NCBI RefSeq assembly: GCF_001282685.1
Contig: NZ_LN875035.1
Span: 1,833,788 to 1,897,787 of the forward strand
DNA length: 64,000 nucleotides
Direction of reading: 5' to 3'
Source: Niameybacter massiliensis
GTDB taxonomy: Bacteria; Bacillota; Clostridia; Lachnospirales; Cellulosilyticaceae
Shown: piece by piece, positions 6,196 to 14,021 of the stretch
Numbering within the stretch: position 1 is the first letter of the stretch
How the letters are laid out: each line of letters opens with the position of its first letter
Notes under the pieces: model-generated
The model's database searches: none
What the model saw: only the letters and a program-made list of their open reading frames with translations
Told to the model about the DNA's origin: nothing
Made by a program: the position numbers and the translations under genes

Positions 6196-7158
6196 TTAAC
6201 GTCTATCAAAATTTAACTTTTTAATTTCATTTTGTTTCTGACTCGCTTCTATTTCATGGGTATAAATAGATAGTGTAATAGATGGATTACTGTGGGAAAT
6301 TAATGAAGATAATGTTGTAATATCCATTTTAGCTGCAATACAATAAGAAGCAAAGGTATGTCTAAAAATATGGGCATGAATATGTCTTCCAAGTACTGTA
6401 GAAAGTTTAAGCATTAAATCATGAAGAGAGCGTGATGCTAAATGCTTATTGCTATCTTGACGACTTGGAAATATATAAGGAGAAGCTTCTAAGTTTGAAA
6501 GAATCTCTTTATTTTCAAGTTTTTTAAGCTGCATTTGATAAACACCTAAAAACTCCAATAACTGAGGATGAATAGGAATATTGTTATATTTAAATCCCTT
6601 TGCTAAAAGCAAAATACTATTGGTTTGGATATTAATATCTTGTTTTTTTATACTTACAGCTTCCGTTGCACGACATCCTGTATAAAGTAAGATACCTATA
6701 AGAAGCCTATTTCTGATCCAACAATAATATAAATAATCAAAATGATTGCTACTCCCTAATAGTACTTCATTTTCACCAATTTGACCATCTATGTAATCAA
6801 TGAGTTCTTCTATTTCTTCTGTAGTTAAAATTTCTTTGGGTGCTTTAGTCTTACGCATTTTAATAGGATCAATATATTCGTACAAACGTTCATCACATAA
6901 TCGTTTTTCATAACAAAATTTAAGAAACCGATGTAATACGACGCGTTTACGTTTAAGACTTGCAGGTTTTAGATCTTGACTTTGAAGTTCAATTAAATAA
7001 TCCTGAATCATTTCAAAGTTAATTTCTTCAAGATTCACAGCTTCTATACACTCTTGCCATTGATTAAGATCTTGCATATAAGCTTTAAGTGTATGAGGTG
7101 AAAGCTGCATGCCTTCTAATGAGACTTTAAAATAATGAATACTCTTTTGAATCGTCAT
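6196..7158 (-). CDS. tyrosine recombinase/integrase
   Basis: The 320-aa product is a complete phage-type/Xer-like tyrosine recombinase. The N-terminal SAM-like core-binding domain (about 1-95) precedes the catalytic domain, with Arg in YTGCRATEAV, Lys in LLLAKGFK, HxxR in HAHIFRHTFASY, His in LISHSNPS and the likely nucleophile Tyr in LSIYTH. AGGAGAGGAGGT gives a strong start. It is not next to other phage genes and is 30 kb from the prophage, with no excisionase, so it may be a relic of another element or a domesticated recombinase. Confidence 0.9.
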   Translation of the reverse strand: MTIQKSIHYFKVSLEGMQLSPHTLKAYMQDLNQWQECIEAVNLEEINFEMIQDYLIELQSQDLKPASLKRKRVVLHRFLKFCYEKRLCDERLYEYIDPIKMRKTKAPKEILTTEEIEELIDYIDGQIGENEVLLGSSNHFDYLYYCWIRNRLLIGILLYTGCRATEAVSIKKQDINIQTNSILLLAKGFKYNNIPIHPQLLEFLGVYQMQLKKLENKEILSNLEASPYIFPSRQDSNKHLASRSLHDLMLKLSTVLGRHIHAHIFRHTFASYCIAAKMDITTLSSLISHSNPSITLSIYTHEIEASQKQNEIKKLNFDRR

Positions 7159-7224: not shown

Positions 7225-8058
7225 TTATTGAGCAGGTTTTGTGCATTTTTTGTAGATTACATAGTACATAACCCCAATAAATACCCCACCGATAAGATTT
7301 CCGATCGTAACTGGAATTGCATTATTGACAAAGAAGTTTCCCCAAGTTAAAGTATCTAACTTATCTGCAGCTACTCCTGACATTTCTACAAGTTCTGGAT
7401 TCATTTTAATAAATAAACCAACTGGAACATAGTACATATTAGCTACAATATGTTCTGCTCCACTAATTGCAAATGCAAAAATAGAGAAGAAACCTGCTAA
7501 TATCTTACCTGTTACATCTTTTGCTGAGTAAATCATCCAAATACCAGCACATACAAAGATATTACAAATGATTGCTAAACAAAGTGCTTCAGTAAAAGGT
7601 AAATTCGACTTTGTAATGGCTGTTTTTAAAGCATAAGCTGCAAAGCCACCATCACTCATTCTAAACAAACCTGTATTTGCTTGCAAGAAAGCAATAGATA
7701 CTGCACCTACAAAATTACCAGCAAGTACAATCACTAAGTTTTTAAAGAAGTCAATTACTCTTGTACGTTTTTCTAAAGTAGATAAGACAATCAGACAGTT
7801 ACCTGTAAAAAGGTCTGCTCCATTAAGTACAACAAACATTAACCCTATTGGGAATACTGCACCTGTTACAAGTTTTGCTACACCTTTATCATGAATAGCA
7901 TGTGCTGCAGTTGATGAAGCTAACGCCCCAAGTGCTATATAAACACCCGCCATAACTGCCATTAAAAAAATTGCAAGTACCGTACGATTAACTTTTGCAA
8001 CACCTGCATCTGTTGTGTAATCTAAAATCTCATTTGGTGCTAAATAATTTTTTGCCAT
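7225..8058 (-). CDS. formate/nitrite transporter (FNT family)
   Basis: The 277-aa integral membrane protein fits the FocA/NirC/FdhC family of pentameric anion channels. It has about six hydrophobic segments and family-type stretches such as LNGADLFTGNCLIV and AGNFVGAVSIAFL, with a C-terminal NLIGGVFIGVMYYVIYKK. The start at 8058 is chosen for AAAGGAG 8 nt upstream. An in-frame start 36 nt further up lacks one. Formate is a likely substrate in a fermentative clostridium that also encodes formate-THF ligase about 9 kb away, but nitrite or hydrosulfide cannot be excluded. Confidence 0.88.
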   Translation of the reverse strand: MAKNYLAPNEILDYTTDAGVAKVNRTVLAIFLMAVMAGVYIALGALASSTAAHAIHDKGVAKLVTGAVFPIGLMFVVLNGADLFTGNCLIVLSTLEKRTRVIDFFKNLVIVLAGNFVGAVSIAFLQANTGLFRMSDGGFAAYALKTAITKSNLPFTEALCLAIICNIFVCAGIWMIYSAKDVTGKILAGFFSIFAFAISGAEHIVANMYYVPVGLFIKMNPELVEMSGVAADKLDTLTWGNFFVNNAIPVTIGNLIGGVFIGVMYYVIYKKCTKPAQ

Positions 8059-8084
8059 TTTATACACTCCTTTTCCAATCAAAG

Positions 8085-8115: not shown

Positions 8116-8994
8116 TTATTCTTTCTCATTTTCCTTATTCAACAAAATTTGTTGTATTTTTGTCTGAAGTTGTTGCATATCGCTATAATATTTTTCTTGT
8201 ATTTTTGTCTTTTCTTCATTAAATATAATATTTTGTTCTAGTAAGGAATTTTTAAGTTCTAATTCATACTTTTCTTTAACGGTAGCTAATTCTTGTGTAT
8301 ATTTTTCTATCTCTAATCGAAGTACTTCTTTACTTTTTTCTATTTCTCTTTGACTAAACCAAAGTTCTGATGCAATTTCATCGTTACGTACTTGTAAACG
8401 TTCATTTTCACTAGTACGTTCTTCTATTTCTATTTCTAAGCGCTCCCATTTACTATTTTCTCCTTTTAAGCGTTCGATTTCTTCTTCATACTTGTCGCAT
8501 AGTACATGATGTTGCTTCATTTGTTGTTTTTGTTCTTTAACAACTTCTTCTAACCCTTCTTTTTCTTTTTTTAATCCACAAATCTGTGCTTCTAGGTTTT
8601 TCTTTTCTTCCTTTAAAGCTTTTATCTCAGTTTCCTTTTCTTCTTCTAACTTTTTTAATGTCTCTTTAAACATTTCTTGTTTCTCTAATAAAGCAATCTT
8701 TTCTTTTTCTTTTTCACTTAACAGCTCCTCTACTTCATTTACCCGATCTTCTACTAAAAGGTTAACCCTTTCACCCATATTTAAATACATATTTTGAATA
8801 CGATTTAATAGTCTTTGCAATTCATCTATATCTTGAACCAATACACTTTCAGACTGTTTTTGACGTTCTAATTTATAGGCACTCAATAACACACTCATAA
8901 ACTCTTTCCCTGTTAGTTGAGTGTTTTTCATCATCTCTGCTAACTCATTTTTCATCTCTTCTGGTACCTTTACACCAAATGTTACATCTGCCAT
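8116..8994 (-). CDS. putative ribbon-helix-helix DNA-binding coiled-coil protein
   Basis: The 292-aa product starts with VTFGVKVPEEMKNELAEMM, then a second helix (LTGKEFMSVLLSAYK). This beta-strand plus two-helix pattern fits a ribbon-helix-helix DNA-binding domain (residues 1-45). Almost all of the rest (about 55-290) is a Glu/Lys-rich long coiled coil, as in KfrA-like or filament-forming plasmid proteins. Its promoter region carries five GTTAAC palindromes, the likely autoregulatory operator. RHH plus coiled coil plus repeated sites is also the layout of partition or nucleoid-organising systems. No ParA is adjacent. Confidence 0.65.
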   Translation of the reverse strand: MADVTFGVKVPEEMKNELAEMMKNTQLTGKEFMSVLLSAYKLERQKQSESVLVQDIDELQRLLNRIQNMYLNMGERVNLLVEDRVNEVEELLSEKEKEKIALLEKQEMFKETLKKLEEEKETEIKALKEEKKNLEAQICGLKKEKEGLEEVVKEQKQQMKQHHVLCDKYEEEIERLKGENSKWERLEIEIEERTSENERLQVRNDEIASELWFSQREIEKSKEVLRLEIEKYTQELATVKEKYELELKNSLLEQNIIFNEEKTKIQEKYYSDMQQLQTKIQQILLNKENEKE

Positions 8995-9013
8995 TTATAT
9001 TTCTCCTTTTAAG

Positions 9014-9093
9014 GTTAACCTTATTCTATCCAGGTTAACCTATATATTTTATAGTTAACTCTTTTATTTTCAACATAGTTAACCAAAGTTAAC
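9014..9093. repeat. array of five GTTAAC palindromes (operator or centromere-like)
   Basis: GTTAAC occurs at 9014, 9034, 9054, 9078 and 9088, mostly as GGTTAACC or AGTTAACT. The spacings are 20, 20, 24 and 10 bp, close to whole or double helical turns, so sites would face one side of the DNA. The array overlaps the promoter of the RHH/coiled-coil gene. Repeated short palindromes are typical operators for RHH proteins. Confidence 0.75.
9046..9073 (-). promoter_or_regulatory. promoter inside the GTTAAC array
   Basis: Minus strand -35 TTGAAA (9068-9073), 16-bp spacer, -10 TAAAAT (9046-9051). The third GTTAAC palindrome lies within the spacer, so bound repressor would block RNA polymerase. This supports autoregulation. 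Confidence 0.55.
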
Positions 9094-9130
9094 TATTATT
9101 TATATATTAGCATAGTGGATATAATTAGCA

Positions 9131-9176
9131 CAACCTACCACAGATAATTATGTATTATCTGTGGTGGGTTTTTAAT
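9131..9176 (+). terminator. terminator-like hairpin
   Basis: A 17-bp stem (AACCTACCACAGATAAT pairs with ATTATCTGTGGTGGGTT, one G-U) is followed by TTTTT on the plus strand. No plus-strand gene precedes it. A TATAAT at 9120-9125 lies just upstream. It may end a very short transcript or insulate the array. The stretch 9177-9420 holds only a low-complexity hydrophobic reading frame that is probably not a gene. Confidence 0.6.
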
Positions 9177-12486: not shown

Positions 12487-13710
12487 TTATTTAGCTAAAT
12501 GGGTTGCACATACATAAGCTGTTGAAAAAGCTGCTTGTATATTGTACCCACCTGTATCACCGTCAATATCTAACACTTCTCCAATACAATAAAGACCTTT
12601 TTGTTTACGACTTTCCATTGTAGTTGGATTAATTTCTTTAAGAGAAATACCACCGGCTGTTACCATAGCAGAATTCATTCCACCAATACCTGAAAGATTA
12701 AAGGTACATCTTGTCAGTTCTGTTACAAGCATCTCCCTTTCCTTTTTAGAAAGTCTTGCACAGGTCTGGTCATTTGGAATACCTAAATGTTCTAAAACCG
12801 TCTCACAAAAACTACGTGTAAGTGTATCAAATTGCTTTAAATAAGTTAATACCCCTTCTTTTCCACGCTCAGGAATTTCTTTTGCAAATTGATCACGTAC
12901 CATTTCATAAGTCATAGGATAAAGATAGTTCACTGTGAGTTGATCCCCTGGCATCATCCATCTTGTAGCATCTAAAATAACTGGACCAGAGAGCCCTTTA
13001 TGTGTAAAAAGTAAGCTTCCATGGCGTTCTACTTGTTTCTTGTTTTCGTGCCACAAAGTAACGCCTGCATCTTTAAAAGATATACCTGAAAGTGCACAAT
13101 AGGTACGCTCATGAGTTGTTACATAAGTTAGTGCTGGCCTAGGTTCAACAACTGTATGTCCTAAAGCACTTGCTAACCGATAACCATCTCCCGTACTTCC
13201 TAGATGAGGGAAAGATTTTCCGCCTGTTGCGACAACCACATGATCTGCTAAATAACGTTCGCCATCTTGTGTCTCCAACGTAAAAATACCATCATAGCGT
13301 TCAATATGTGATACGCCTTGATTGTATTTTACTTCTACATTGCATTTCTTACACACCATCAATAAAGCATTCAATACATCTATACTTTTTGAACTTTTAG
13401 GAAAGACCTTACCATTTTCTCTTGTTTCGCTACTTATTCCTGCCTGTTCAAAAAATCGAATAGTATCTTCATTGGTAAAACGAGTAAGTGCACCTTTGAT
13501 AAACTTCTCATGATCACCATAACGTGTAAAGAAATGTTCAATAGGACCACTATGCGTAAAATTACATTGCCCACTTCCTGATATTAATAACTTCTTACCT
13601 GCCTGTGCATTTTTCTCTAAAACAAGCACTTTTCTACCCGATTTTCCTATTTGACCCGCAGCAAAAAGCCCTGCTGGTCCAGCACCTATAACAATGGTAT
13701 GATAATGCAT
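12487..13710 (-). CDS. BaiN/HI0933-family NAD(P)/FAD-dependent oxidoreductase
   Basis: The 407-aa product begins with a Rossmann FAD-binding motif (IVIGAGPAGLFAAGQIG), then LVLEKNAQAGKKLLISGSG and CNFTH, the HI0933/YhiN signature. The C-terminus has GGMNSAMVTAGGISLKEINP and GEVLDIDGDTGGYNIQ. BaiN in clostridia reduces bile-acid intermediates, but most homologues have unknown substrates. GAAGGAGG precedes the ATG. Monocistronic with a terminator. Confidence 0.88.
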   Translation of the reverse strand: MHYHTIVIGAGPAGLFAAGQIGKSGRKVLVLEKNAQAGKKLLISGSGQCNFTHSGPIEHFFTRYGDHEKFIKGALTRFTNEDTIRFFEQAGISSETRENGKVFPKSSKSIDVLNALLMVCKKCNVEVKYNQGVSHIERYDGIFTLETQDGERYLADHVVVATGGKSFPHLGSTGDGYRLASALGHTVVEPRPALTYVTTHERTYCALSGISFKDAGVTLWHENKKQVERHGSLLFTHKGLSGPVILDATRWMMPGDQLTVNYLYPMTYEMVRDQFAKEIPERGKEGVLTYLKQFDTLTRSFCETVLEHLGIPNDQTCARLSKKEREMLVTELTRCTFNLSGIGGMNSAMVTAGGISLKEINPTTMESRKQKGLYCIGEVLDIDGDTGGYNIQAAFSTAYVCATHLAK

Positions 13711-14021
13711 AGCGTCCTCCTTCGTTTGATTTAATCTATTTGAATCGCATAAATTTATATCTTAGTTGTTTTTTAGCAACCTTTATAGAATAACAAGAAT
13801 GCTGTCGAAATGCAATGTTTTTTATCAACTTTTTTCTTTTCTCTAGTCTCTCTAAGAGCTATTCACTTTTGTACAACTTCATTTATAGTTAAATTCTTCC
13901 ACAAGTGTCCTAAATTTATACTGTCTACCCATTCTTAATACAGCATAAGTACTGCTAAATAGATAAGAGGTTGATCGGAATCTTCCAATCAACCTCTTAT
14001 TTTAGAATGTAAATTTAGTTT
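13711..14021. other. intergenic region without genes
   Basis: This 311-bp A+T-rich gap separates the flavoprotein gene from the pgsA end of the large operon. It holds the upstream region of the flavoprotein gene and the operon terminator at 13962-14003. I see no other gene or RNA. Confidence 0.6.
13962..14003 (-). terminator. terminator of the dapG-pgsA operon
   Basis: ATAAGAGGTTGATTGG / CCGATCAACCTCTTAT stem followed by CTATTT on the minus strand, after pgsA. Confidence 0.75.

Follow-up and report, generated by a model that had tools for sequence, protein, structure and literature searches.

We found that a chromosomal gene in the window (the whole 64,000-nucleotide stretch of DNA analyzed here) encodes a protein with a ribbon-helix-helix (RHH)-like head and a long predicted coiled coil, and that the five GTTAAC palindromes overlapping its promoter recur as an array upstream of most of its homologues. 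This conserved layout makes it very probable that the protein binds the array and represses its own gene. For the family as a whole we favor a role in replicon maintenance, carried out by an autoregulated, array-binding coiled-coil protein, at a probability of roughly 0.55 on the sequence evidence described below. The family is undescribed as judged from Pfam, NCBIfam, and PHROG scans and from the open-access literature, a search of which did not find GTTAAC together with ribbon-helix-helix.

The original prediction had described five GTTAAC sites within 80 bp at steps of 20, 20, 24, and 10 bp, and this arrangement was confirmed from the sequence (9014–9093). As also predicted, the sites straddle the -35 and -10 of a promoter-like sequence (10/12 consensus positions): two lie above the -35, one in the spacer, one after the -10, and one before the ribosome binding site (RBS). 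The description of the array as helically phased holds loosely, with the 24-bp step departing from a whole turn. GTTAAC occurs 12 times in the whole window versus 18 expected, which leaves the cluster as the one unusual feature, and a compositional effect does not account for it. Dinucleotide shuffling of the gene's 150-bp upstream stretch, repeated 300 times, never gave two sites. We saw no clear avoidance of GTTAAC across the genome (over 364 kb the ratio was 0.82, which ranked 15th among 64 palindromes; over 400 kb it was 1.05). The additional copy predicted inside the gene is present (Table 1), and over 25 homologous genes we counted 11 intragenic sites versus 5.1 expected (P = 0.012). In one homologue (L034), intragenic sites at +372 to +415 repeat the promoter spacing (30, 8), and in another (L031) they lie at +173 to +374 of the gene.

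Table 1. Positions of the RHH coiled-coil gene, its GTTAAC sites, and adjoining features in the window.
Feature	Coordinates	Strand	Basis
RHH coiled-coil protein gene, 292 aa	8116..8994	-	ORF and homologues
RHH head, residues 4–45 (DVTFGVKV strand, helices 12–25 and 29–45)	8860..8985	-	AlphaFold model
Continuous helix/coiled coil, residues 50–290, with conserved late block	8125..8847	-	Model and alignment
Intragenic GTTAAC, as GGTTAACC	8761..8766		Sequence
RBS core GGAG	9003..9006	-	Sequence
GTTAAC nearest the RBS	9014..9019		Sequence
GTTAAC directly past the -10	9034..9039		Sequence
Promoter-like TTGAAA-16-TAAAAT	9046..9073	-	Consensus match only, 10/12
GTTAAC within the -35/-10 spacer	9054..9059		Sequence
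GTTAAC upstream of the -35	9078..9083		Sequence
GTTAAC upstream of the -35, most distant from the gene	9088..9093		Sequence
27-bp inverted repeat CCACAGATAAT-N5-ATTATCTGTGG, core of a terminator-like hairpin (9132–9170)	9138..9164		Sequence
Formate/nitrite transporter, next gene downstream	7225..8064	-	Sequence cluster/Pfam comparison of loci
Xer-like tyrosine recombinase, second gene downstream	6196..7158	-	Pfam

The reading of the protein as a ribbon-helix-helix-like start followed by a long coiled coil agrees with the structure models. The head, modeled from 19 sequences (mean pLDDT 83; pTM 0.44), is extended to residue 11 and then forms helices 12–25 and 29–77, which gives the N-terminal strand followed by two helices of the RHH superfamily, with weak or middling scores in the fold lists; the strand itself was left unassigned in this single-chain model. 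RHH proteins dominated the Foldseek matches to the head (best E = 0.36, none at 0.001 or better), and RHH chains likewise dominated the VIA-align list (best Z 5.9 to 5.0, middling by the tool's notes), where families missing from the list were not counted as excluded. By sequence, the nearest PDB entry was Reg576 (E = 0.012), a regulator of a Gram-positive plasmid. In two plasmid homologues RHH_1 fell below its cut-off of 20.5 bits (L103, 19.1 bits, E = 0.0013; L102, 15.5 bits), and a DUF7557 match in L102 was just over its cut-off (25.6 versus 25). For the window protein itself, neither Pfam nor NCBIfam gave a match above cut-off, and the PHROG scan gave no convincing one (one listed at E = 0.02). 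In the full-length model, one predicted helix of about 240 residues spans residues 50–290 (mean pLDDT 85; pTM 0.32), and the head was poorly predicted, at pLDDT 42–71. Late in the coiled coil lies a block conserved across 11 family members. The DVTFGVKV strand is invariant in 19 aligned rows, an invariance that is partly built in because loci were fetched with DVTFGVK as one of two patterns; other searches returned the strand variants TKGFK, TWGTK, KGFR, and KSFN. At two loci (L009, 1501–2400; L011, 1501–2400) the reading frame is interrupted at poly-A runs 8 and 9 nt long, and the conserved coiled coil continues in another frame, by slippage, recent mutation, or sequencing error.

Homologues were found in 13 of 24 same-family genomes (the window's own among them), at 18 loci of a named genome collection, in 10 of 391 genomes of the class at E = 0.001 (again counting the window's genome; five weak), in 12 of 398 genomes from the class to which a Paenibacillus belongs at E = 0.0001 (two of them known beforehand), and in 15 plasmid records. 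Named carriers include Cellulosilyticum, Sporanaerobium, Epulopiscium, Alkalibaculum, Haloimpatiens, Ammoniphilus, Paenibacillus, and Cohnella. A phage origin was considered and rejected, with no match in phage records and no relative confirmed in IMG/VR. In a single-contig genome of the same family (G012), the best DnaA match reached 47 bits versus a cut-off of 343.9, a score so far below cut-off that the usual DnaA seems missing.

The original prediction had proposed a search for homologues with conserved upstream GTTAAC arrays. When this was run on the 44 homologues with a placeable start, 32 had at least two sites within 150 bp upstream (0.10 expected from shuffles) and 12 had fewer than two; the 44 homologues are kin, and the 32 carriers are not 32 independent events. 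By group, arrays were found in 13/13 homologues of the same family, 7/9 from the named genomes, 0/4 from the Clostridia sample, 5/8 from the Bacilli sample, and 7/10 on plasmids, where the carriers came from Caldicellulosiruptor, Sporosarcina, Lysinibacillus, Psychrobacillus, and Paenibacillus. Left out of the 44 were loci in which the N-terminus was not found (L112) or was lost (L144), weak or short matches (L045–L049), two loci on short contigs with four and three GTTAAC sites just upstream of the matched frame (L140 and L142), and two from the same genomes as other loci (L135 and L136, which share genomes with L037 and L036); doubly fetched loci were counted once. Eleven of the matched plasmid records were fetched and 10 were counted (H9–H11 and H16 outside). 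Such conservation supports the array as a real target, to which the protein itself would bind.

Over 96 sites, the hexamer was preceded by A/G in 81% and followed by C/T in 79%. The 69 steps between neighboring sites in 27 arrays fell at 8–11 bp (19 steps), 17–24 bp (34), 29–33 bp (12), 40–42 bp (3), and 63 bp (1), with none at 12–16 or 25–28 bp. Vector strength of the neighbor steps was 0.62 at 10.5 bp, 0.56 at 10 bp, and 0.61 at 11 bp (0.46 for all pairs), and their mean phase was 1.4 bp short of whole turns; because the array sequences are related, no formal test was applied to this phasing. Promoter boxes matching at least 10 of 12 positions were found in 6 of the 27 rows, and none in the other 21. 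Sites lie on both sides of the -35 or -10 in three of these (the window, L026, and L033), and the array starts directly past the -10 in three others (L031, L103, and L105); in L033, a perfect TTGACA-17-TATAAT is bracketed by array sites.

The three-site pattern was largely confined to the gene within the family. It occurred in 13 places in 24 family genomes, 11 of them at the RHH coiled-coil gene, and no three-site array turned up in the 11 genomes in which the gene was not detected. A reversed control pattern gave 12 matches versus 27 for the true pattern in the same 24 genomes, overlapping matches counted, and since this control was not silent, a lone three-site match elsewhere carries little weight. 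The window's genome contained no second regular array, with one irregular three-site match inside an open frame.

We also compared the sites with the head sequence. The four sampled Clostridia, all without an array, carry SVR instead of the TFGVK strand. Given three loci that have the TFGVK strand yet lack two sites (L032, L035, and L147) and two with arrays despite other strands (L111 and L143), the correspondence between strand and site is only partial. In several relatives without GTTAAC (L041, L043, L044, L107, and L146), repeated GTAAAC/GTTTAC was spotted by eye upstream, perhaps a shifted DNA word.

Beyond the array lies an inverted repeat, whose start is 70–71 bp from the array's 10-bp pair in all eight loci with the exact repeat (window included). 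Its inner arms are nearly invariant in 10 aligned loci (of 13; L015, L017, and L018 lack the repeat). The exact repeat pattern was present in 9 of 24 family genomes, once per genome in eight of the nine, and the only extra copy, in the window's genome (G000, C11:344582), sits behind another gene and has the look of an ordinary terminator. We considered the repeat as the dif site of Cellulosilyticaceae and rejected it, because it lies away from the skew switch of the window's genome, scores as a terminator, and has this terminator-like second copy. A search for known RNA at the hairpin gave only a chance-level miRNA match.

Taken with the models, the arrays suggest a mechanism in which the gene product would form an RHH dimer whose second helix runs on into the long coiled coil, and in which dimers would occupy (A/G)GTTAAC(C/T) words. 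Dimers on words about one to three turns apart could load together, closing the promoter and producing self-repression. At arrays elsewhere (after rep, near parM, or next to dif), placement suggests that the protein may mark and tether DNA via its coiled coil, and DNA so marked might serve replicon maintenance through segregation, dimer handling, or organization of the region. The chromosomal copy in the window would keep the self-controlled form of this module. Of these elements, the predicted autoregulated RHH protein is supported by array conservation across Clostridia, Bacilli, and plasmids and by promoter overlap, and more weakly by the fold comparison.

The near restriction of regular arrays to the gene in family genomes, and their single occurrence in the window's genome, would also suit a plain autorepressor that controls only its own amount, with a coiled coil unrelated to DNA handling and with any extra arrays being decoys or relics. 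Extra arrays on plasmids argue against this. The three-site pattern was found away from the gene's promoter in 4 of 10 whole plasmid records (pFN9B, pPB01, pPlas3, and pFN9A), with no extra array in the other six and no match of the control pattern in any of the ten. On pPB01, the second array lies ~34 bp past the stop of the replication initiation gene (rep). On pPlas3, three tandem copies of a 30-9-10 array start ~250 bp past a small gene downstream of parM, and a partial second set of array sites lies elsewhere on the plasmid; the RHH coiled-coil protein of this P. peoriae plasmid is divergent (strand KGYKVD) and its gene has no array of its own. On pFN9A (L110), a MerR-headed DUF3967 gene (13420–13974) starts ~285 bp from the second GTTAAC array. 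Plasmids commonly carry rep and recombinase genes, which counts against the maintenance reading. A plain autorepressor is further opposed by two genomes in which the gene itself lacks an array and one lies next to a dif-like site, and we consider it unlikely, if the most credible of the alternatives.

These two genomes are those of Haloimpatiens and Clostridium sp. KNHs214. In both, a regular array lies in a conserved stretch without a clear gene (530/780 aligned columns identical, gaps and overhangs included). The Haloimpatiens genome had one three-site match and 13 control matches; KNHs214 had two three-site matches, one of them irregular (steps of 15 and 27), and no control match. A dif-like site lies 87, 68, and 59 bp from the three array sites, at equal offsets in the two genomes, and the array is 450–490 bp upstream of an Xer-type recombinase gene. 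The reference for the dif comparison was a presumed B. subtilis dif sequence. One half of the dif-like site matched it exactly in one genome and with one mismatch in the other, and the whole site matched at 21 and 20 of 28 positions; 17-base dif-half matches with up to two mismatches were about as frequent as those of a reversed control. No known RNA was found near the dif-like site. The Xer-type frame beside it at L174 (2550–3932) has an N-terminus ~120 residues longer than that of its L175 relative; a MerR-like match fell below cut-off, and the start codon is uncertain.

The placement of this array raises the question of whether the protein is a terminus or dif organizer or an Xer accessory, a MatP-like job in which it would bind beside dif and connect the terminus with division or with the recombinase. 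A published survey of Firmicutes found a correlation between the position of dif and the points where the skew shifts (PMC3025954). In KNHs214, GC skew was +0.31 at 828–830 kb, +0.05 at 832–834 kb, and -0.11 at 834–836 kb, with the array at 834.7 kb and a short dip at 818 kb; among 19 sampled 20-kb stretches, those up to 810 kb had positive skew and those from 838 kb on had negative skew. The skew thus switches within about 4 kb of the array, in a sample of these 19 stretches and one 6-kb locus of a single contig, with 830–832 kb outside it. As to the confinement of targets to the terminus that marks MatP, the array of KNHs214 (G417) lies at the skew switch, and the window locus lies away from the switch of its genome. 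Elsewhere, the G001 gene is at 50.6% of the circle from dnaA, with the skew switch ~58 kb away; in G018 the switch zone is noisy and begins roughly 100 kb from the gene. In the window's genome, the skew switches near 0.11–0.12 Mb of contig C11 and the gene is at 1.84 Mb, a distance that leaves a terminus role there unsupported. We rejected terminus location as a general rule, since G001 and G018 fit it and the window's genome contradicts it. Sites with up to 7 mismatches of 28 to the presumed B. subtilis dif were absent from 240 kb of G001 and from 160 kb around the G000 switch, and 200 kb of G018 gave one 7-mismatch match.

The genes downstream provide a further link to Xer. A formate/nitrite transporter adjoins the gene in 8 of 9 family loci compared (exception L033), and an Xer-like recombinase follows the transporter in six of these eight; one contig ends earlier, and in L030 the Xer-like recombinase lies farther away on the opposite strand. 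A recombinase of the same cluster is also second downstream in L033 and L034, and serine recombinases, named from sequence only, lie near the Paenibacillus copies. The window recombinase scored well under the XerC and XerD cut-offs, as did the others tested, so these enzymes are Xer-like and their Xer identity is only putative. Such neighbors, together with the KNHs214 and Haloimpatiens sites and the nearby skew switches in KNHs214, G001, and G018, speak for a terminus organizer. They are set against the distant switch in the window's genome, an array at dif in what is one lineage (KNHs214 and Haloimpatiens proteins are 76% identical), the presumed dif reference with half matches near control frequency, and the partial skew sample. 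We judge such an organizer improbable, ranking it second among the alternatives, and it is doubtful that a terminus or dif role is the main job of the family. In its fullest and still tentative form, which we think improbable, an undescribed Bacillota RHH coiled-coil family would mark the terminus, loading on a GTTAAC array beside dif and acting with the neighboring Xer recombinase or division machinery to resolve or order chromosome dimers, with plasmid relatives using the same array for dimer or copy handling. If true, a self-regulated protein unrelated in family to MatP would do a MatP-like job.

Operon read-through could also make the protein a local regulator of the formate/nitrite transporter, which is next on the same strand in most family loci, but a different gene comes next in L033, L031–L040 have no transporter from this cluster, and the annotation shows none next to the plasmid homologues, many of which retain the array, making this very improbable.

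The analysis brings out a family not named by the database scans and gives its likely DNA word, along with a partial correlation of strand to site. It also provides a concrete starting point for asking how dif may be marked in some Firmicutes and by what means their plasmids may be maintained.

Several known systems share parts of this design. MatP has its DNA target in the terminus, and its matS motif differs from GTTAAC. The head resembles the RHH fold of MatP (4d8j; Z 5.4, a middling value only; rmsd 2.5; 58 aligned), whereas the sequence has no MatP family match. Small RHH regulators (CopG, Reg576, Arc, and omega) act as dimers on short operators and are not known to carry a long coiled coil; their chain lengths are 41–70 where listed, and the long coiled coil is a trait of the present protein. 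The ParR- and TubR-like partition functions raised in the original prediction were not supported. ParR is an RHH protein that works with ParM, and no ParM-type partner was found in the next two genes downstream of the window gene, which encode the transporter and the Xer-like recombinase. TubR has a winged-helix head, and no TubZ was seen beside the gene.

Like pSK1 Par and RocS, the present protein combines a DNA-binding head and a coiled coil in a single chain; theirs act in DNA partition, and RocS, with its HTH head and a membrane helix at the C-terminus, shares DUF536 with pSK1 Par (PMC11500499). Neither DUF536 nor an HTH head was found here. No KfrA, DUF536, or MatP model was listed up to E = 1 in the Pfam scan, nor KfrA or MatP in NCBIfam, in scans whose HMMER filters drop most weak matches.

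KfrA of RA3 and R751 has a small DNA-binding head, a long coiled-coil tail, and autoregulation (PMC7783346, PMC7821693). In RA3, five 9-bp repeats cover the -35/-10 of the promoter of KfrA itself and a terminator lies immediately upstream; the protein ends in a coiled-coil tail and takes part in plasmid maintenance (PMC7783346). The present family shares with KfrA a repeat operator over its own promoter, in layout only, and a predicted long helical tail. The original suggestion of a KfrA-like protein therefore stands for the layout, by analogy, and fails for family membership, with no KfrA family match. The family differs further in its GTTAAC palindromes, where RA3 has the 9-bp TGTATTGTA, and in its range, which lies in Bacillota and takes in both chromosomes and plasmids. 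Because the head models as RHH-like and a KfrA-type HTH head was not found, we do not class the protein as KfrA; it may instead represent a convergent counterpart of KfrA, with the same layout built on another DNA-binding fold.
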